IMG/VR virus record: IMGVR_UViG_3300029309_000091
Span: 1-42,278 of that record
DNA from: a virus
Strand: one strand, 5' to 3'
DNA: 42,278 bases
The first letter of the stretch is position 1; each line of letters opens with the position of its first letter. Below the pieces are notes generated by a model that worked only from the letters and a program-made list of their open reading frames with translations, did no database searches and was not told the origin of the DNA. This document shows, one piece after another, positions 20,479 to 42,278 of this stretch. The translations under genes were made by a program, and so were the position numbers.

Positions 20479-20861
20479 TATTTTCTCCCGAACAATCTTG
20501 TAGCAGAACGCACACCGAAACTAGCGGCAACAATAATCCCAAGACTATACTGATACCATTGTGGCATTGATTCCAACTGGGCAAACCCATTCGCTACTAC
20601 CTCTTCCATTCCCGGTATAAATGCTAGAATAAGTGGAATACTAAATAGTATCGTAAGCCATTCATCTTTCCATGAAGACTGACTACCTTTAGCCATCTCC
20701 AAATCCCAATCAATCTCACCTGTAGCTTTCTTTTGCATTACTACGGCTTCAGCTTGCGCTTTAGCAACCTTGGTAGCTGACTGCGCTTTCTTCTCTTCAA
20801 CTTTACCTTTTAACCATGTACCAGCTAAATCTGCTATAGGTCCTATCAACATATTAACCAC
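20478..20861 (-). CDS. Holin-like membrane protein (3-TM family-like)
   Basis: About 127 residues, with a helical N-terminal part containing GTWLKGKVEEKKAQ. A linker 'GEIDWDLEMAKGSQSSWKDE' is followed by two strong membrane segments (TILFSIPLILAFIPGM and YSLGIIVAASFGVR). This matches the 3-transmembrane holin-like family often found near the endolysin of marine phages. I place the start at the GTG at 20861, which has GAGG at a good distance. ATG at 20852 is also possible, and a longer frame (TTG, 20888) has no ribosome binding site. It may be the holin or a pinholin/antiholin partner of the gene at 20278-20478. Confidence 0.6.
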   Translation of the reverse strand: MVNMLIGPIADLAGTWLKGKVEEKKAQSATKVAKAQAEAVVMQKKATGEIDWDLEMAKGSQSSWKDEWLTILFSIPLILAFIPGMEEVVANGFAQLESMPQWYQYSLGIIVAASFGVRSATRLFGRK

Positions 20862-21099
20862 GTCTAAACCTCGCAGTTTTCTTCGCAATATTCTTCGGTT
20901 GTTTCACGAACTGTTTGCCCTTTCTTTTTCCTTCCCTCTTCGCTCGTGATGTTGCCGCATACTCCGCAGATGTAAGGCTCTGTATCGCTGAAGTAGGAAG
21001 GTAACGCTCTCCAGTTTCGCTTGATTTTTTCCCAGACTTTGTTCGCCATTTTTGTTTCGTCCACGATTTTAAACTTTGTTGTGATTTTGCTAATGCCAT
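20854..21099 (-). CDS. Small basic conserved protein (81 aa)
   Basis: This is an 81-residue strongly basic protein. Its core 'WTKQKWRTKSGKKS', followed by 'TGERYLPTSAIQSL', 'EYAATSRAKREGKRKGKQF' and a 'PKNIAKKTARFR' tail, is a motif found in small proteins of marine phages and some bacteria. The role has never been clear to me. It is probably a DNA- or RNA-binding protein or a virion basic peptide, by charge. It overlaps the holin-like gene by a few bases. Confidence 0.6.
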   Translation of the reverse strand: MALAKSQQSLKSWTKQKWRTKSGKKSSETGERYLPTSAIQSLTSAEYAATSRAKREGKRKGKQFVKQPKNIAKKTARFRRG

Positions 21100-21100
21100 A

Positions 21101-21550
21101 TTACATACCTTGTAAAAACATAATCCACCATATTATACCACCAATACCACCTACAGCTACTAAAATTAGTACGCCTATTAAAATAGCATCTATTAATTCT
21201 CTTTTCTGTCTTTCAGCTAGTGCTATTTTACGTTGTCTTTCTTTCCTAGCTTTTGCTTGAAATGTTTGCCAGTCTTGCCACAATCCCGGACGACCAGCCC
21301 ATATCATGTATTCTTTAATCCACTCTTCTTCTTCACGAATCTTTTCAAGTGCCATAAACTCTTCTAGTTCTGACCCACCTTTATCACCCCAAAAGCTATT
21401 CTTTTTCTTTTCACCTCTATGGCGTAAATCTTCTTTAGCTTCCACAAACTTAAAGATACTGTCTCCTGCATCAACAATATCTTTTCCGTTCTGTAAAGTT
21501 TGTTTTATAACGGCAAACGCCGCATTTGCTGCGGCTAACTCTGCTAACAT
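21101..21550 (-). CDS. Membrane-anchored virion/lysis-region protein (149 aa)
   Basis: This is a 149-residue protein starting MLAELAAANAAFAVIKQTLQ. An Ala-rich N-terminal helix is followed by a charged coiled-coil-like middle (about residues 40-115, including SFWGDKGGSELEEFMALEK) and one C-terminal membrane segment (AILIGVLILVAVGGIGGIIW). Comparable proteins sit beside the lysis genes of marine podophages. An internal-virion or spanin-like role is possible, but neither is shown. Confidence 0.5.
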   Translation of the reverse strand: MLAELAAANAAFAVIKQTLQNGKDIVDAGDSIFKFVEAKEDLRHRGEKKKNSFWGDKGGSELEEFMALEKIREEEEWIKEYMIWAGRPGLWQDWQTFQAKARKERQRKIALAERQKRELIDAILIGVLILVAVGGIGGIIWWIMFLQGM

Positions 21551-21576
21551 GTGTCTCTCCTTTCACGTGTAGCATT

Positions 21577-21861
21577 TTATTTGTAACCACCACCAGCTTT
21601 CTTATATGCTTGTGCAAGCATCTGTGCTTTACGAGCAGACCATTGACCTGCACCACCACCTTTTGTTCCAGCTTTGATACGTTGGAACTGCCGTTTACGC
21701 ATTGCAGGTTTTGTATAATTACCTGCTTTATTTACTGTACTACCACCTTTGTTTAATTTAAGGCTAGATAAAGTCTTAGCTTGTTTAGCATGTAAGTTAG
21801 ATGCTTTTTTTAAACCTGCTACAACTTTTTTAACTTTCTTTTTATTTGTTGTCTTTGCCAT
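21577..21861 (-). CDS. Basic protein with GQWSARKAQ motif (94 aa)
   Basis: This is a 94-residue protein with pI clearly above 10 by composition. The C-terminal half carries 'NYTKPAMRKRQFQRIKAGTK' and then 'GQWSARKAQMLAQAYKKAGG', which I recall as a widely distributed small-protein family (possibly DUF5872). The N-terminal half is a Lys-rich helix with 'KKVKKVVAGLKKASN'. It is part of a run of basic proteins (20854-24957) and may bind nucleic acid. Family number uncertain. Confidence 0.6.
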   Translation of the reverse strand: MAKTTNKKKVKKVVAGLKKASNLHAKQAKTLSSLKLNKGGSTVNKAGNYTKPAMRKRQFQRIKAGTKGGGAGQWSARKAQMLAQAYKKAGGGYK

Positions 21862-21867
21862 AATAAC

Positions 21868-22221
21868 CTACCTGCTTGGGTCATAATATTCTTCTACGGA
21901 TGCTAATGCAATAACTTGACTTGCTGATGAACCTACACCTGATAATACATCTCCTGCGTTCATAAAAAAAGGTTTGCCGTCATCAAATACATACACAATA
22001 TTAGTAGCCACTGCTATACTAAATGCATCTAATATTTGTTGTGCCGCACCACCTGACGGTGTATAGGATAAATCAAATGTTCTATCAGATGTATCTTTAT
22101 TTGAAAAAGCAAGTAATTGTACAACAGCCGTAAAATTAGTTGGGCATGTATATATAGTTGTTGCACCTGTTCCTAGTGGAATAACTGCATTTGTATATTT
22201 TACTTTATCTAGTTGTGGCAT
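21868..22221 (-). CDS. Small beta-rich virion protein (117 aa)
   Basis: This 117-residue protein starts MPQLDKVKYTNAVIPLGTGA and contains 'TTIYTCPTNFTAVVQLLAFS', 'DGKPFFMNAGDVLSGVGSS' and a 'VIALASVEEY' end. The plan (TCP strand, hydrophobic strands, GD-x-L turn, SSAS, V-x-x-S-V-E-E) is that of small phage virion proteins, and a looser version is at 2054-2398. It is the only acidic to neutral product inside this basic-protein run apart from the SET protein and the 181-residue protein. Confidence 0.55.
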   Translation of the reverse strand: MPQLDKVKYTNAVIPLGTGATTIYTCPTNFTAVVQLLAFSNKDTSDRTFDLSYTPSGGAAQQILDAFSIAVATNIVYVFDDGKPFFMNAGDVLSGVGSSASQVIALASVEEYYDPSR

Positions 22222-22578
22222 TTACTCTGGTCTACTTTCCCAATACTGCTCACCATAATCATGCAGTATTTCTTCACCCTTTTTTATTTTTTTAACAGCA
22301 AAGAATTTAATAAATCTTTCATCTTCATCTGCAATATCCCATTCAGCATTTGGAGTTTCACTATGATTATATATCATAGCAAATCCAAGTGGTACAAAAT
22401 AATCTTCATCATCTTCATAAGGAGAGTAAAAAATATAATCATGTAAAATGCAGGTATCTGCAAAATCATTTTTATCTGCTATAAGATAAGGACATAACTC
22501 AATTGTATCTCCTTGAGCATAGTCCTTATCTGCAAAAATACCCAGTCCATGTAAAGACGAGTTTGATATATAGGGCAT
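22222..22578 (-). CDS. SET-domain protein (putative protein lysine methyltransferase)
   Basis: This 118-residue protein is nearly a minimal SET core. It shows 'HGLGIFADKDYAQGD' (residues 10-24, SAM-binding GxG), 'FVPLGFAMIYNHSETPNAEW' (residues 61-80, the N-H-S pseudoknot) and 'IKKGEEILHDYGEQYW' (98-113, with Y108 in the position of the catalytic tyrosine). There are no pre-SET or post-SET cysteines. It lies among Lys-rich proteins (21577-21861, 22578-22727, 23225-24957), which are natural candidates for substrates. SET proteins occur in some marine phages, but no role is established. Its start shares one base with the stop of the Met/Gly/Lys repeat gene. Confidence 0.8.
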   Translation of the reverse strand: MPYISNSSLHGLGIFADKDYAQGDTIELCPYLIADKNDFADTCILHDYIFYSPYEDDEDYFVPLGFAMIYNHSETPNAEWDIADEDERFIKFFAVKKIKKGEEILHDYGEQYWESRPE

Positions 22579-22727
22579 TACTTCTTTTTCTTACTCATAC
22601 CACCACGCATCATTTTCTTTTTCTTAGCCATTTTAGCCATGCCGCCACCCATCATTCTAGGTTTTGTCATACCGCCACCGCGCATCATTTTTTTCTTCTT
22701 AGCCATTTTTGCTTTGCCCATTGCCAT
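22578..22727 (-). CDS. Met/Gly/Lys repeat micro-protein (49 aa)
   Basis: From ATG at 22727 the frame encodes 49 residues built from repeats of MAKKKKMMRGGGM and related units (MAKMAKKKKMMRGGM, MMGGGMAKM), ending SKKKK. The charge is roughly +19 with no acidic residue. Its first 29 nt overlap the 3' end of the 181-residue gene in another frame, and its stop shares a base with the SET gene start. A GG-M motif like the one here recurs in other virion-region proteins. It is probably a nucleic acid- or membrane-binding peptide, or a SET substrate. Function unknown. Confidence 0.6.
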   Translation of the reverse strand: MAMGKAKMAKKKKMMRGGGMTKPRMMGGGMAKMAKKKKMMRGGMSKKKK

Positions 22728-23244
22728 TTCTTAGTTTCCTTCTTTCTAATACTAAAGATTGATATACTTCTTCAGGGAAATGTTTATAGTACCCTGACTT
22801 CTCTAAACTTAGTGCCGCACTATCCAACACTGATAATAATTGTATGAAAACCATACAATATTCTAACTCGTCACTAGTAATGCCGTTATCATCTAAAAAT
22901 TCTAAACCAGCTTCACCAGCATCGTAGTCAGGGTGAAACACCATCAAATGCATATCTATACCTGCAATTGAAAATGCTTCATTCATACCATCACAAAGCC
23001 CATCAAGATATTCTATGTGCGGTAATTCTTCAGATGCCCATACTACTATATCGTAGTTATGTTCATTAAACTTTTCTACTTCTTCACGTAAACCTTCAAA
23101 TCCTGTATTGATACTAAACTTTACTTGATTATCTACCCATGCTTTTCTAGCATAAGGACAAGGTGGTAAGCCATTTAACTTATCATTAGGAACTTCAAGA
23201 AAGTCATGTGACCATTTACGTATATCAGCTTCTACTGGATGCAC
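22699..23244 (-). CDS. Hypothetical phage protein (181 aa)
   Basis: This 181-residue acidic protein contains 'LNGLPPCPYARKAWVDNQ' near its start and 'FHPDYDAGEAGLEFLDDNG' in the middle. These have the look of a conserved soluble enzyme or adaptor, and similar proteins are common in marine phages. The start is a GTG at 23244 without a clear Shine-Dalgarno. It overlaps the preceding gene by 20 nt, implying coupling. The C-terminus is basic (LERRKLRNGNGQSKNG). No known catalytic motif. Confidence 0.5.
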   Translation of the reverse strand: MHPVEADIRKWSHDFLEVPNDKLNGLPPCPYARKAWVDNQVKFSINTGFEGLREEVEKFNEHNYDIVVWASEELPHIEYLDGLCDGMNEAFSIAGIDMHLMVFHPDYDAGEAGLEFLDDNGITSDELEYCMVFIQLLSVLDSAALSLEKSGYYKHFPEEVYQSLVLERRKLRNGNGQSKNG

Positions 23245-23527
23245 GTGTTTTTGTTTTCTTTTTCTGTTGCTCTATAAATCTTCTAAACACATTTGCCGCG
23301 GCAACTTTACCTGCAGCCCTTGCTCTTTGTTCCATCGCAATAGCCGCTTGTGTTTTATGGTTGTGACTTCTATCTGATGCTTTTATCTTACGCACAGATG
23401 CTTCTGCATCTTTTACTGTAGCAAACTTTAAACCCTTGATTGTACCCTTTGGGTCTTCATCAGTATAGAGGTCACTATGTTTTTTACTTTTAGCTGGTTG
23501 ACCTTTTTTTCTTGGTATTCTACGCAT
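23225..23527 (-). CDS. Basic phage protein (100 aa)
   Basis: This is a 100-residue protein with a basic N-terminus (MRRIPRKKGQPAKSKKHSDL) and a conserved core 'TIKGLKFATVKDAEASVRKI', then 'HNHKTQAAIAMEQRARAAGK' and 'AANVFRRFIEQQKKK'. The core is a small helical motif that recurs in proteins of many marine phages and resembles nucleic acid-binding helices. It overlaps both neighbours by a few bases. Function unknown; a DNA-associated role is plausible. Confidence 0.6.
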   Translation of the reverse strand: MRRIPRKKGQPAKSKKHSDLYTDEDPKGTIKGLKFATVKDAEASVRKIKASDRSHNHKTQAAIAMEQRARAAGKVAAANVFRRFIEQQKKKTKTRASSRS

Positions 23528-23879
23528 TTTTTGTTATTTTATTAAATGCTTCAGGGCTTGCTTTCTTTAATGCTCTAAGACCCGGGTTCATCTTAACGTC
23601 ACCACCACCTACATACATATGTGGTTTTCCATATGCCATACCACCATTAGCCATTTTTGCTTTAGCCATTTTTTTAGCATCGCTCTTTTTCATAGACCCA
23701 ATCCCTATTGATACAACCATTACTTTATCATTTTTCTTTTTAGCTAGTGTTCCTTTGTTAGCCTGAATTGTTTCTTCAGGATTAGCTACTTTTCTTTTTG
23801 CATTCTTTACTTCTTGCGCTGTATATTCTTTAGGTGATTCAAGAATTGTTCTAGCTTTTGCTAAACTCATAACTGCCAT
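23520..23879 (-). CDS. Basic protein with GGM motif (119 aa)
   Basis: This 119-residue protein has an N-terminal helix containing 'SLAKARTILESPKEYTAQEV'. The middle is basic (KKSDAKKMAKAKMANGGM) with the GGM signature, and the C-terminus holds 'NPGLRALKKASPEAFNKI'. The middle is close in style to the Met/Gly/Lys peptide at 22578-22727. It sits in the basic-protein run and is a probable virion-associated or nucleic acid-binding protein. No enzymatic motif. Confidence 0.55.
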   Translation of the reverse strand: MAVMSLAKARTILESPKEYTAQEVKNAKRKVANPEETIQANKGTLAKKKNDKVMVVSIGIGSMKKSDAKKMAKAKMANGGMAYGKPHMYVGGGDVKMNPGLRALKKASPEAFNKITKNA

Positions 23880-23880
23880 T

Positions 23881-24669
23881 TTAATCTCTCTTTTTCTTTT
23901 TTCTTTTAAATGGATTTGAATCAGGGCGACCAGTATAGACTGTACCTATTATACCTTTATGAGTAACGCCTACAACTATACCGTCTTTATATACAGGTTT
24001 ACCACCCTCTTTTAGTTTCTTTTCAATTCTACCAAGCATAGCCTTACTTAAAGGATTGACTGCTTTTTCATTACGCTTTCTAATAGCTTCAATTGCTTTT
24101 TGGCTAGTAGTTTTCTTTGGTGCTTTAGTATCATACGCAGGACCTCTTGCTGGTCTTGCATCCTTAATACTAGTATCTCTTACAGATTTATTGCTTAACT
24201 TACCTGCACGTCTTTGCTTATCTCTTGCAGACTTAAATGCTGCATTAGGATTCTTAGCCTCTTTCTTTTTAGGTGTCAGTTTAGAATCGCCTCTTCCCGG
24301 TCTATATAATTCTATACCTGATGTTCTTTGTTTAGATTTTCTGTCACTCATTCCAGTAGGTTTAGCTTTTGCTTTGGGTGCAGAAGGTTTAGGTTTAGGT
24401 GTTTTTGTGTTTCTAACTGTACTAGTTTTAGGTTTAGAAGGTGGAGATTTTTTTAGCGGTGTTGGTTTTTTAACTGTACCACTAGGCTTCTCAGTCATAA
24501 AACCCATAGGTTCTGAACCAGACATCTGATATTTTTCACGTATTTTTTTACGTAATTTTGGGTCTTTAACCTGACCGCCAGTAGGTCTGCCATCAGCACC
24601 TATCTTGCGTATGCCACCTAAATTACCTATTTGGTATTTTTGTCCATCAATTGTTACAATTTTAGCCAT
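23881..24669 (-). CDS. Lys/Pro-rich virion-region protein (262 aa)
   Basis: This 262-residue protein is low complexity over most of its length: runs such as 'KKPTPLKKSPPSKPKTSTVR' and 'PKPKPSAPKAKAKPTGMSDR' give a very high positive charge. Short ordered pieces remain at the start (MAKIVTIDGQKYQIGNLGGI) and at the end (KAMLGRIEKKLKEGGKPVYK and GVTHKGIIGTVYTGR). It is histone-H1-like in composition and may condense DNA in the virion or during late infection. The assignment is compositional only. Confidence 0.55.
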   Translation of the reverse strand: MAKIVTIDGQKYQIGNLGGIRKIGADGRPTGGQVKDPKLRKKIREKYQMSGSEPMGFMTEKPSGTVKKPTPLKKSPPSKPKTSTVRNTKTPKPKPSAPKAKAKPTGMSDRKSKQRTSGIELYRPGRGDSKLTPKKKEAKNPNAAFKSARDKQRRAGKLSNKSVRDTSIKDARPARGPAYDTKAPKKTTSQKAIEAIRKRNEKAVNPLSKAMLGRIEKKLKEGGKPVYKDGIVVGVTHKGIIGTVYTGRPDSNPFKRKKKKRD

Positions 24670-24681
24670 TAGTATTTTCCT

Positions 24682-24957
24682 TTAACATTTCCAGCGTCTA
24701 CGTGCTTGACGTAAACGACTGTTTGGGTCATTAGCCGCTTTAGGAAATTGTTTCATCTGTCCAGCAGACCTAGCACAGAAAGACTTGCGTCTTTTTGCAT
24801 CCTTACTGCCTTTCTTTACCTTGCCTGTAACAGCTGTTTTTAATTTACTACCCGGATTTTTTCTTCTGTACGCAGCGACACCTGCAGCAGTCATACCAGC
24901 ACCAGCTTTAGTGGGGCGAAAGTTTCTCTTATTTCGCTTTGGCATGTTATCTGCCAT
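24682..24957 (-). CDS. Basic small protein (91 aa)
   Basis: From the ATG at 24957 it encodes 91 residues. A longer start at 24984 exists, but AAGGTG lies about 8 nt before this one. The body 'RKNPGSKLKTAVTGKVKKGS' followed by 'AKRRKSFCARSAGQMKQF' and ending 'SRLRQARRRWKC' is a motif shared by small phage proteins (possibly the DUF6321 type). It has two Cys and is very Lys/Arg-rich, so nucleic acid binding is likely. It follows the secreted-protein gene at 24960-25151 within a few bases. Confidence 0.6.
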   Translation of the reverse strand: MADNMPKRNKRNFRPTKAGAGMTAAGVAAYRRKNPGSKLKTAVTGKVKKGSKDAKRRKSFCARSAGQMKQFPKAANDPNSRLRQARRRWKC

Positions 24958-24959
24958 GA

Positions 24960-25151
24960 CTATACACCTTTTTCTTCCTGACATTTAAAAGAATATGTAT
25001 GTGGAGTACCTAATATTTCTGATATAGACTCAACCATATGTGAAGCACGTTGTTCGCATTGTACTTCTGTATAATACGGACCCCAATCATCTACGGCAAT
25101 AATACATTGACCCGTTAATAAAGAACAGGCCATCACAAATGTTGTAAACAT
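24960..25151 (-). CDS. Small putative secreted/cysteine protein (63 aa)
   Basis: This 63-residue protein has a hydrophobic N-terminus (MFTTFVMACSLLTGQCIIAV) that could be a signal or membrane segment, and four Cys in total. Its outline (hydrophobic start, EVQCEQRASHM centre, F-x-C end) resembles the small protein at 30402-30599. Its start lies 12 nt after the stop of the first gene of the left arm. Function unknown. Confidence 0.5.
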   Translation of the reverse strand: MFTTFVMACSLLTGQCIIAVDDWGPYYTEVQCEQRASHMVESISEILGTPHTYSFKCQEEKGV

Positions 25152-28085: not shown

Positions 28086-28328
28086 ATGAAACACCCAATA
28101 TCACGTTACATGATGGCATCTTACGCATACTATGTAGAAGATGACCCGATAATAAGTGACGCAATGTTTGACCAATGCGCTAAGAGTATCTTGGAGCATT
28201 GGGATACACTTGACCATCCACACAAACATCTGTTATCAAAGGAGATGTTAGAGGCAGGAACTTATTTAGGTAAGTATCCTGAGATAGTTAAAAGTGCAGT
28301 AGCACATTATAGGGAGACACAGATATGA
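28086..28328 (+). CDS. LigA N-terminal-like small protein (80 aa)
   Basis: This 80-residue protein has 'ASYAYYVEDDPIISDAMFDQ', which closely follows the 'Y-Y-x-x-D-x-P-x-x-S-D-x-x-[YF]-D' motif of the Ia subdomain of NAD-dependent DNA ligases. The later 'HPHKHLL' is typical of a phage family carrying only this helical motif. The adenylation domain of a ligase is missing. It may bind NAD or nicotinamide-like ligands. Stop and start of the next gene overlap by 4 nt. Confidence 0.55.
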   Translation: MKHPISRYMMASYAYYVEDDPIISDAMFDQCAKSILEHWDTLDHPHKHLLSKEMLEAGTYLGKYPEIVKSAVAHYRETQI

Positions 28329-29434
28329 ATGTATTAAGTTTATTTGATGGATGTGGTATGTCTTATGTCGGACTTAAACGACTAGGAATACCTGTCACTA
28401 AGTATTATGCAAGTGAAGTAGACCCATACCCTATCAAGGTAGCTATGGCTAATCATCCTGACATCATACAACTTGGGGATGTAACCAACATCCTCAAACG
28501 TCACCATTTTCAATACGCATACGAACCTATCGATTTGCTTGTAGGTGGCTCACCATGTCAGGGGTTCAGCTTTGCAGGTAAGCAGTTAAACTTTGATGAC
28601 CCACGCAGTAAGTTATTCTGGGAGTATGTCAGGATATTACGCAAGCTCAAGCCCAAGTATTTCTTGCTTGAGAATGTACGCATGAAACAGGAGTATCAGG
28701 ATATTATATCTGATGCACTAGGTGTCAAGCCTATCGCTATCAACAGTAGGCTATTGTCTGCACAGAATAGATACAGATTGTATTGGACTAACATACCTAA
28801 TGTTACCCAACCAGAGGACAAAGGTATTATTCTACAAGATATACTAGAGCATGGGTTTGCTGACAGAGACAAGTCACATTGCCTTGATGCCAACTACTTC
28901 AAAGGTGGCAATCTCAAGACATACTTCAAGAAGCATCGCAGACAGTTAGTGTTCAGCAAAGATGGGCTATGTCATGTTGGAGATGCTGACATCAATGGCA
29001 ACGACACTATCAAGCGAGTGTATCACCCATCAGGTAAAGCACCTACGCTCACTACTATGGGTGGTGGACACAGAGAACCCAAGGTATTGTGTGGTGCATG
29101 GCGAGGTAGATACACAGTCGATGGTGTACGTCAAGACCACAAGCATAGTGTCAGAGGTATGACAGAGCAACGATTGGAAGTACGCACAGATGGCAAAACC
29201 AACAGTCTGACCACAGTACAGAAGGACAATGTAGCAGTTCACTTTGACCATGACTGGAATGATACGAGTGTGTTTGACTTAGAGTGGCGCAAGCTGACAC
29301 CACTTGAATGTGAGAGATTACAGACATTGCCAGACAACTACACCAACCATGTGTCCAACACGCAACGATACAAGATGCTAGGCAATGGCTTTACAGTTGA
29401 CGTGATAGCACATATATTGAAAGGAGTTAAATAA
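28325..29434 (+). CDS. DNA (cytosine-5) methyltransferase
   Basis: This 369-residue protein has all main C5-methylase motifs in order. Motif I is SLFDGCGMSYVGLKRLG (residues 5-21) and motif IV is GSPCQGFSFAG with catalytic C78. Motif VI is ENVRM (E116), motif VIII is QNRYRLYW and motif X is GNGFTVDVIAH near the end. It would methylate cytosine at a specific site, probably to evade host restriction, and no cognate nuclease gene is adjacent. The base composition is visibly richer in G and C than its neighbours, suggesting recent transfer. The target sequence is unknown. Confidence 0.92.
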   Translation: MNVLSLFDGCGMSYVGLKRLGIPVTKYYASEVDPYPIKVAMANHPDIIQLGDVTNILKRHHFQYAYEPIDLLVGGSPCQGFSFAGKQLNFDDPRSKLFWEYVRILRKLKPKYFLLENVRMKQEYQDIISDALGVKPIAINSRLLSAQNRYRLYWTNIPNVTQPEDKGIILQDILEHGFADRDKSHCLDANYFKGGNLKTYFKKHRRQLVFSKDGLCHVGDADINGNDTIKRVYHPSGKAPTLTTMGGGHREPKVLCGAWRGRYTVDGVRQDHKHSVRGMTEQRLEVRTDGKTNSLTTVQKDNVAVHFDHDWNDTSVFDLEWRKLTPLECERLQTLPDNYTNHVSNTQRYKMLGNGFTVDVIAHILKGVK

Positions 29435-38860: not shown

Positions 38861-39075
38861 TGGAAGATTTAGAACAATTGTCAGAAGAAATAAAACTTAA
38901 AGAAGAAGAGTTAAAAGCATTACGTAAAGAGTATCAAGAAAAACGCATGTCAGGTTTACGTTCTGCTTTGCAAGCTAGGCAAGAAGCTGATAAGTTAATT
39001 CAAGAAGAACTACGTTCAATGGGTTACAAGCAGTTTAATCCAATACCTTTAGGACGATGGAATAATCTTGCCTAA
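38857..39075 (+). CDS. Coiled-coil small protein (72 aa)
   Basis: This 72-residue protein is a charged coiled coil (residues 1-55, KEEELKALRKEYQEKRMSG) with a short 'NPIPLGRWNNLA' end. It overlaps the exonuclease by 4 nt and the endonuclease I frame by 8 nt. It may act as a partner of one of them. Unknown. Confidence 0.5.
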   Translation: MMEDLEQLSEEIKLKEEELKALRKEYQEKRMSGLRSALQARQEADKLIQEELRSMGYKQFNPIPLGRWNNLA

Positions 39076-39526
39076 TCATAAACAATTTAGAGTAGCACGA
39101 AAGTATGGCTACAGAAGTGGGCTAGAACTTTCTAACTCAGAACGACTTACTAAACTTAATATAAAATTTGAGTATGAGAGTATTAAAATTGAGTGGGAAG
39201 ACCTAGCCTACAGAACTTATACACCTGATTTTATACTGGACAATGGTATAATAATTGAAACTAAAGGAATGTTTACTACGTTAGATAGACGTAAGCATCT
39301 TGCAATTAAGAAACAACATCCTAAATTAGATATAAGATTTGTCTTTGAAAACAGCAGACGAAAATTACGTAAGGGTGCTAAGTCTTCATATAGTCAATGG
39401 TGTGACAAATATGACTTTAAATATTACGATAGAATTATACCAGAGAGTTGGTTAGAGGAAAAGGGTAAGAACAAACATCCAAAGTTTATTGCTTTCCCAA
39501 AACGAAAAGTACAGAGGAGAAGATAA
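39068..39526 (+). CDS. T7-type endonuclease I (Holliday junction resolvase)
   Basis: This 152-residue protein has 'YRSGLELSNSERL' with E20, 'YTPDFILDNG' with D54, and 'IIIETKGMF' with E64 and K66. These are the same residues and nearly the same positions as E20, D55, E65 and K67 of T7 endonuclease I. The start is TTG at 39068, because no upstream or near ATG fits. It resolves branched DNA and recombination intermediates and helps degrade host DNA. The gene overlaps the coiled-coil gene by 8 nt. Confidence 0.9.
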   Translation: MPNHKQFRVARKYGYRSGLELSNSERLTKLNIKFEYESIKIEWEDLAYRTYTPDFILDNGIIIETKGMFTTLDRRKHLAIKKQHPKLDIRFVFENSRRKLRKGAKSSYSQWCDKYDFKYYDRIIPESWLEEKGKNKHPKFIAFPKRKVQRRR

Positions 39527-40329: not shown

Positions 40330-42278
40330 ATGAATAACTATTTACCAACAGACTATCAAAATTTTATTGCACTATCACGTTATGCAAGATGGAAAGAAGA
40401 TGAACAAAGACGTGAGACATGGGGTGAAACAGTAGCACGTTACTTTGATTATATGACAACACATTTAAAAAAGACATGTAACTATACACTTGAAGATTCG
40501 CTACGTGAAGAATTAGAAGAAGCAGTTCTTGAACAACGTGTTATGCCTAGCATGAGAGCTTTGATGACATCAGGACCTGCCTTAGATAGATGTCATGTGG
40601 GTGGTTACAATTGCTCTTACGTGCCTGTAGATAACCCTAGAGCGTTTGATGAAACTATGTACATTTTAATGTGTGGAACAGGTGTAGGTTTTTCTGTAGA
40701 GCGTGAAAACGTAGATAAATTACCTATAGTAAATGAACACTTTGAGAATAGTGATACAGTTATTAAAGTTGGTGATAGCAGACCCGGGTGGGCAAGAGCG
40801 TTGCGTGAGTTGATTGCCATGTTGTATGCAGGTCAAATACCTAAATGGGATGTATCAGAAGTACGTCCTGCAGGTGCAAGGCTAAAAACATTTGGTGGCA
40901 GAGCATCAGGACCACAGCCTTTAGTAGAGTTATTTAACTTTTGCGTTAATAAATTTAAGAGTGCATCTGGTCGTAGACTTTGGCCTATTGAAGCACACGA
41001 TATAATGTGTAAGATAGGAGAGGTTGTTGTTGTAGGTGGTGTCAGACGTAGTGCATTGATTTCATTATCTAATCTTGGAGATGACCAGATGCGTCACGCT
41101 AAGTCAGGTGTGTGGTGGGATGAACCAGAAAAAAATATTAAGCGTGAAGGTCAAAGGTCTATGGCTAATAATTCTGTAGCCTATAAAGGAAAACCAGAGA
41201 TGGGTACATTTATGCGTGAGTGGCTTGCATTGTATGAATCACATTCTGGTGAGCGTGGTATATTTAATCGTCAGTCAGCAAAAGTACAGGCATCAAAAAA
41301 TGGAAGACGTGATACTGACCACGCTTTTGGATGTAATCCATGTAGTGAAATAATACTACGTCCTTATCAATTTTGTAATCTATCTGAGGTAGTAGCACGT
41401 GCATCTGACAACAAAGAATCTCTTGCTTGGAAAGTAAAGATGGCTACAATACTTGGAACATTTCAATCCACCATGACAGACTTTAAATATTTACGTAAAG
41501 TTTGGCAAAAAAATACAGAGGAAGAAAGATTATTGGGTGTTTCTCTTACGGGTATTATGGATAATCAAATATTATCAGGTAAAAGCAGTACGTATGGTAT
41601 GAACATAAGTTCTTTATTAGAAGAACTTAGAGATGTAGCTGTAGATACAAACAAAATATTTGCAGAGCAGTTGGGTATAGCACAGTCTACTGCCATCACA
41701 TGTGTAAAACCTAGTGGTACAGTTAGTCAATTAGTTGACAGTGCCTCTGGTATTCACGCTAGACACAATCCTTATTATGTTCGCACTGTGCGTGGTGATA
41801 ACAAAGACCCACTGACACAGTTCTTAGTAGCACAAGGTATACCTGCAGAACCTGATGTAATGAAACCAAATAGCACCACAGTATTTAGTTTTCCAATGAA
41901 AGCACCATCTGGTGCAGTTACTCGCACAGAGATGAAAGCTATAGAACAGCTTGAATTATGGTTGTTATATCAACGTCACTGGTCAGAACATAAACCCTCT
42001 GTTACTATCTCTGTTAAAGAACATGAGTGGATGGATGTTGGTGCATGGGTGTATAAAAACTTTGACGAGGTGTCAGGCATTAGCTTCTTACCTTTTAGTG
42101 AGCATACATATCAACAAGCACCATATCAAGATATTGATGCAGAAAAGTATGAAGAACTTAATATGAGTATGCCAGATAATGTAAACTGGTCGTTGCTTCA
42201 AGAGTTTGAGAAAGAAGATAACACATCTGGTGGACGTGAGTTAGCTTGCTCTGCAGGTGTATGTGAAGTAGTAGATTT
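40330..42278 (+). CDS. nrdJ: Adenosylcobalamin-dependent (class II) ribonucleotide reductase, 3' end cut
   Basis: From ATG at 40330 the frame runs to the end of the window, giving 649 residues. It lacks only the last few residues, judging by the C-terminal redox pair C640-x4-C645 (CSAGVC), which normally lies at the very end. Radical-site motifs are CNPCSEIIL with C338 and FCNLSE with C349, and the N-terminal partner is C95 (NCSYVP). 'CGTGVGFSVE' and 'KPSGTVSQLVD' are further signatures. This is the monomeric Lactobacillus leichmannii-type triphosphate reductase. It makes dNTPs without oxygen-dependent radical generation but needs vitamin B12 from the host. Confidence 0.92.
   Translation, partial: MNNYLPTDYQNFIALSRYARWKEDEQRRETWGETVARYFDYMTTHLKKTCNYTLEDSLREELEEAVLEQRVMPSMRALMTSGPALDRCHVGGYNCSYVPVDNPRAFDETMYILMCGTGVGFSVERENVDKLPIVNEHFENSDTVIKVGDSRPGWARALRELIAMLYAGQIPKWDVSEVRPAGARLKTFGGRASGPQPLVELFNFCVNKFKSASGRRLWPIEAHDIMCKIGEVVVVGGVRRSALISLSNLGDDQMRHAKSGVWWDEPEKNIKREGQRSMANNSVAYKGKPEMGTFMREWLALYESHSGERGIFNRQSAKVQASKNGRRDTDHAFGCNPCSEIILRPYQFCNLSEVVARASDNKESLAWKVKMATILGTFQSTMTDFKYLRKVWQKNTEEERLLGVSLTGIMDNQILSGKSSTYGMNISSLLEELRDVAVDTNKIFAEQLGIAQSTAITCVKPSGTVSQLVDSASGIHARHNPYYVRTVRGDNKDPLTQFLVAQGIPAEPDVMKPNSTTVFSFPMKAPSGAVTRTEMKAIEQLELWLLYQRHWSEHKPSVTISVKEHEWMDVGAWVYKNFDEVSGISFLPFSEHTYQQAPYQDIDAEKYEELNMSMPDNVNWSLLQEFEKEDNTSGGRELACSAGVCEVVD

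Follow-up and report, generated by a model that had tools for sequence, protein, structure and literature searches.

A vSET-like gene in HMO-2011-type marine podoviruses covaries with a single residue of an overlapping lysine-rich peptide gene, its candidate substrate

The stretch of DNA considered here (the window) consists of one IMG/VR virus record, IMGVR_UViG_3300029309_000091, of 42,278 bases, and the subject of this analysis is one of its genes, encoding a SET-domain protein predicted to be a lysine methyltransferase, together with the small and very basic proteins encoded around it. The portal protein shares 80-82% identity with its counterparts in Puniceispirillum phage HMO-2011 and in the Roseobacter phages CRP-345 and CRP-1, which assigns the window to the marine podoviruses of HMO-2011 type, a group that ranks among the dominant phages of the sea (PMC9038755). 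The terminase is 82-84% identical to those of HMO-2011-type phages and the late genes are collinear. The locus lies within the late, leftward-transcribed module, adjoining the terminase and lysozyme genes, and all of its features described below are on the minus strand. The SET gene (22222-22578) encodes an acidic protein of 118 residues and is directly preceded by b3 (22578-22727), the gene of a 49-residue repeat peptide rich in lysine, glycine and methionine. Close to the N-terminus of b3 is the motif GKAKMAKKK (22692-22718), which is diagnostic of SET-bearing phages and forms a candidate methylation site. An initial annotation had described this region as a minimal SET methyltransferase flanked by at least six lysine-rich proteins, one of them a 49-residue peptide, and had read it as an enzyme with its substrates. 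The genes were found where it had placed them, with seven basic open reading frames (ORFs) in all, and the enzyme-substrate proposal is supported for b3 but not for the cluster at large.

SET methyltransferases are best known for writing the marks of eukaryotic chromatin. The window protein matches the Pfam profile PF00856 from end to end (profile positions 1-105 of 105; E-value 5.5e-14; 52.9 bits against a gathering cut-off of 22.4), and its nearest solved relative is vSET of the chlorovirus PBCV-1 (1n3j; 2.2e-16), with residues 4-117 aligning with vSET residues 8-114 in a minimal, stand-alone form of the domain. Tyr48 and Tyr108 align with vSET Tyr50 and Tyr105, which we take to be catalytic residues of vSET, so that both tyrosines are kept, and vSET Tyr16 is replaced by Leu12. 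The motifs YNHSETPNA and EILHDYG are retained across the aligned homologues; in a few relatives (L260, L264, L268 and L270) the NHS of the catalytic motif is NHG or NHN. From this homology, the protein is predicted to catalyse S-adenosylmethionine-dependent lysine methylation. It is strongly acidic, with an isoelectric point (pI) of 4.3 and a net charge of -17, and the median net charge of the SET proteins is -20. Across 1841 pairs drawn from 81 non-redundant copies, the ratio of non-synonymous to synonymous substitution rates (dN/dS) has a median of 0.17 and a maximum of 0.36; the gene is under purifying selection.

The SET gene is unevenly distributed. A first scan of IMG/VR recovered 36 relatives, nearly all of them 66-89% identical, and an alignment scan of the same collection recovered 177. 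No SET gene was found in the cultured HMO-type phages of the INPHARED collection, in which the single, distant SET match is a 735-kb uncultured phage that is entered twice. A sample was assembled from contigs anchored on the neighbouring gene g22699 (22699-23244), whose 3' end overlaps b3, and picked regardless of SET: 37 non-redundant contigs carry SET and 72, approximately two thirds, do not. No copy was found elsewhere in the genome in 15 SET-less records of 32-59 kb, and each of six SET-bearing records has exactly one. Since the cultured HMO-type phages lack it, SET is an accessory gene within the group; at the position of the SET slot, HMO-2011 has a 419-residue structural protein. A cellular source for SET was considered and rejected, as the genome_contigs collection holds no close relative, and the b3 motif was likewise without match in that collection.

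The peptide encoded by b3 is 33% lysine and contains no aspartate or glutamate. Its stop codon overlaps the start codon of SET in the sequence TAATG at 87 of 95 non-redundant SET genes, an arrangement that suggests translational coupling of the two. In SET-bearing phages b3 mostly begins MAM(H)GKAKMAKKK, whereas the corresponding segment of SET-less relatives reads GKTKMASKK, GKTKVAKKK or GKKKMAKKM; the peptide reads MKGKTKMASKK in HMO-2011 and MAMKPRAMTKKK in CRP-345. This difference was recovered by two scans of the whole IMG/VR DNA collection made for b3 motifs without using SET. The scan for GKAKMAKKK returned at least 113 loci, of which four are incomplete, and SET lies 3' of the motif in all 109 others listed. 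The scan for GKTK-[MVI]-A returned b3 genes in 71 of the 80 matches examined, five of them incomplete, and SET is lacking from the other 66 without exception. In the g22699-anchored sample, 32 contigs have both SET and the motif, five have SET without the motif, 72 have neither and none has the motif without SET. When all six-residue words in ORFs within 2.5 kb were compared, KAKMAK was the one most strongly associated with SET, occurring in 29 of 33 SET-bearing clusters and in none of 55 SET-less clusters.

Within the motif, one codon position separates the two classes without exception. The first base of codon 3 is G in 87 of 87 SET-bearing and A in 59 of 59 SET-less phages (V = 1.00; 146 non-redundant b3 genes), a change that exchanges alanine for threonine or lysine, while the synonymous third positions in the same stretch mostly show V = 0.13-0.28. 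The nine-residue peptide GKAKMAKKK has 37 distinct nucleotide encodings in SET-bearing phages, and the association between motif and SET must on that account be old. In the tree built from g22699 nucleotides, SET was gained or lost nine times, with good branch support for at least seven of these changes, and the b3 residue typical of each class recurs across these independent events: the motif moves with SET in six of seven independent pairs and never in the opposite direction (p = 0.03, sign test).

Taken together, these patterns incline us slightly towards the view that the accessory, vSET-like protein methylates one or more lysines in the GKAKMAKKK tail of b3. The SET homology, the purifying selection, the gene overlap and the covariation of the b3 residue are observed; catalysis, the assignment of b3 as the substrate, the choice of target lysine and the role of b3 are all matters that we infer. 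In this scheme, b3 and SET would probably be translated as a coupled unit, after which the acidic enzyme would bind the basic tail of the peptide and modify it; the lysine of A-K-M is our guess at the target, and the alanine beside it, rather than threonine or lysine, would act as the specificity residue. In composition alone, the peptide looks like a protein that binds nucleic acid or lies in the capsid interior, and methylation might tune its binding to nucleic acid or capsid, late in infection or in the virion, or might shield its lysines. The evidence leaves evenly poised the broader proposition that a bacterial virus possesses a dedicated enzyme-substrate pair for lysine methylation, a 'histone-code-like' module that is gained, lost and mutated jointly. 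If the proposal is correct, lysine methylation would be used inside a bacterial virus, in a dominant marine phage group, and there would be a first handle on the lysine-, glycine- and methionine-rich repeat proteins of marine phages. As the proposal names one peptide and one residue (alanine or threonine at motif position 3), a simple assay can decide it.

Several observations weigh against this proposal. Five SET-bearing contigs of the sample have an N-terminally extended b3 that lacks the motif; peptides of g22699 also reach 21 of 33 against 0 of 55 clusters in the six-residue comparison; one synonymous site, the third position of codon 6, follows SET (V = 0.63); the sign test is built on few independent pairs; and a segment GKAKMA[NSD]GG(MAYGK) is present in the b5 family, SET-less phages included (L050, L093, L389 and L420; AKAKMANGG in the window). 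Furthermore, b3 and SET are adjacent and are swapped as a cassette, and co-inheritance could create the association; because the two genes are exchanged as a block, linkage alone is a serious rival, the main one, according to which b3 and SET form one recombining cassette, GKAKMA marks the linked b3 allele and the target of SET is unrelated. The boundaries of such cassettes are sharp. Between the window and contig L041, a diverged block of b3, SET and decoration gene is flanked on either side by sequence that is 98-100% identical. Most of the stretch between the end of b3 and the gene after SET, that gene included (21868-22680), shows 21-37% divergence; this swap of SET and decoration gene suggests that virion-surface genes have a recombination hotspot here. 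Similarly, the 1.2 kb upstream is for the most part 93-99% identical between L042 and L043, which then diverge in b3, in SET and in the decoration gene, with one possessing SET and GKAKMAKKKK and the other neither. Under linkage alone, however, it is hard to see why the Ala/Thr site should be fixed amid synonymous sites that are for the most part scrambled, or why a single peptide should persist in 37 encodings; moreover, a sub-lineage in which another gene or an extension places SET 338-503 nucleotides from the motif still keeps that motif. The codon 3 split, the encodings and the tree argue for more than linkage, and we consider hitchhiking doubtful as a full explanation.

Two further explanations leave b3 out of the reaction. 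The closest solved relative, vSET, is a virion enzyme that acts on H3K27 of its host and has been linked to host shut-off (PMC7019647, PMC3089700), a precedent for supposing that the phage makes or injects its SET protein in order to methylate some protein of the host, whether ribosomal, HU-like or involved in translation. The bacterial hosts lack H3, though, SET is placed among late, structural genes and the residue switch in b3 would be left unexplained, which together make a takeover of this kind improbable. The remaining scenario is a shared host or ecological factor, with SET-bearing and SET-less phages differing in host and with SET and the tail of b3 each adapting to that host independently. 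It draws on the grouping of SET-bearing phages on the g22699 tree and on the fact that no SET-bearing isolate is known. It appears more improbable still, given that SET-bearing and SET-less contigs as near to each other as L042 and L043 differ in both traits.

As a separate observation on the extended forms of b3, the SET-bearing contigs L002, L071 and L077 have TAAKGG and the SET-less relative L102 has VAARGG; in these few sequences this is a possible second switch, between lysine and arginine, at a methylation site.

The basic proteins extend well beyond b3. Seven ORFs between 20854 and 24984 are strongly basic, with pI values of 10.2-12.0 and net charges of +16 to +51, and their order is largely common to the window, HMO-2011, CRP-345 and CRP-1. 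Besides b3, they comprise b1 (20854-21099; 81 residues; phrog_14910, 1.6e-39); b2 (21577-21861; 94 residues; phrog_17747, 7.8e-30); b4 (23225-23527; 100 residues); b5 (23520-23879; 119 residues); b6 (23881-24669; 262 residues), rich in lysine, proline and alanine; and b7 (24682-24984; 100 residues; net charge +28), a DUF6321 protein (PF19846, 7.5e-14). The initial annotation had called b6 histone-H1-like, a description that is apt for its composition but not for its homology, as no H1 match was found in Pfam, PHROGs or NCBIfam. Most of the basic genes occur independently of SET. HMO-2011, which lacks SET, has homologues of b1, b2, b3 and b5; the SET-less phages CRP-345 and CRP-1 have homologues of b1, b2 and b3, and of b1 and b2, respectively. 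Both b1 and b2 are independent of SET, and b2 belongs to the core of many marine podoviruses, being present in 17 phage records, none with SET, from phages of SAR11, Roseobacter, OM43, SAR116 and Synechococcus. Conversely, no basic-protein cluster lies beside the distant SET proteins of large phages. The idea of a single enzyme serving the whole cluster is therefore unsupported, and the cluster as the substrate set of SET was rejected as a general claim.

Two further genes flank the b3-SET pair. Directly after SET lies the hypervariable g21868 (21868-22221), for which a confident structure model (predicted local distance difference test score, pLDDT, of 92) has a beta-sandwich fold whose best PDB matches are capsid cement entries from Helicobacter phages KHP30 and KHP40 (E-values 1e-3 to 2e-3; TM-scores 0.5-0.57). 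With moderate confidence, its product is probably a capsid decoration protein, which would place the SET slot within a region of exchangeable virion-surface genes. On the other side, g22699 is strongly conserved and occurs in HMO-type contigs whether or not they carry SET (phrog_28122, 3.9e-71), with the motifs LNGLPPCPYA and FHPDYD and a weak resemblance to DUF6875; its model (pLDDT 70) gave no fold match. A 2-oxoglutarate (2OG)-Fe(II) oxygenase gene adjoins the g22699 homologue of phage CRP-810 (L352). A role for g22699 as a 2OG oxygenase or another b3-acting enzyme was rejected, the fold model being weak and matching nothing. Several relatives have an oxygenase gene near the locus (L003, 1075-2154; L038, 6358-7440), annotated as a methanesulfonate monooxygenase in HMO-2011, and no ORF of the L003/L038 type was seen at the corresponding place in the window.

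Elsewhere in the window, the rightward-transcribed region contains a C5-cytosine DNA methylase gene (28325-29434; PF00145, 4.8e-47), and the phage may encode DNA methylation as well as protein methylation. A phage integrase (31580-32452) and a T7-type endonuclease I (39068-39526) are also encoded in the rightward half, and the end of the window falls inside a B12-type ribonucleotide reductase gene (40330-42276).

The initial annotation knew of no described phage system of this kind. Text searches of the literature, with subscription journals mostly outside their coverage, found no report of a phage SET protein, and a SET gene goes unmentioned in a paper on the HMO-2011-type phages (PMC9038755). 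A review written in 2010 describes the characterised viral SET protein as acting on host histones (PMC3089700), and no other characterised viral SET protein was found in the reviews, that one included. The enzyme in question is vSET (A612L) of PBCV-1, which methylates H3K27 of its eukaryotic host (PMC7019647). Like the window protein, vSET is a viral, minimal SET protein (approximately 119 residues) without pre- or post-SET domains, and the two share the aligned tyrosines and the NHSxxPNA motif. Unlike vSET, the window protein comes from a virus of bacteria and has a tie to a basic peptide that the phage itself encodes; as the known hosts of the group are bacteria, which lack H3, it would be vSET-like in form only. 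Nearer to the window taxonomically, HMO-2011, CRP-345 and CRP-1 belong to the same group and have no SET, while the SET domains of large phages (LR756501, L430-L437) are longer, at 130-137 residues, with that of LR756501 approximately 33% identical to the window protein; they have no adjoining basic cluster and the one charge computed is near neutral (+1).

Parallels to the proposed pairing come from cells. The cpnSET protein of Chlamydophila pneumoniae binds and methylates the bacterium's own H1-like protein, in the Hc1/Hc2 system, and Go1-SET of Methanosarcina mazei acts on the archaeon's own DNA-binding protein MC1-alpha (PMC3980110). The former resembles the present proposal in that a prokaryotic SET protein acts on a protein of its own organism, and differs in being cellular and in acting on another substrate family; the substrate of the latter is an archaeal chromosome protein rather than a viral peptide. 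To our knowledge, covariation of a substrate motif has not been described for cpnSET. In form, the window protein is a vSET-like viral SET protein; in concept, the proposed pair of SET and b3 resembles cpnSET with Hc1 and Go1-SET with MC1-alpha.

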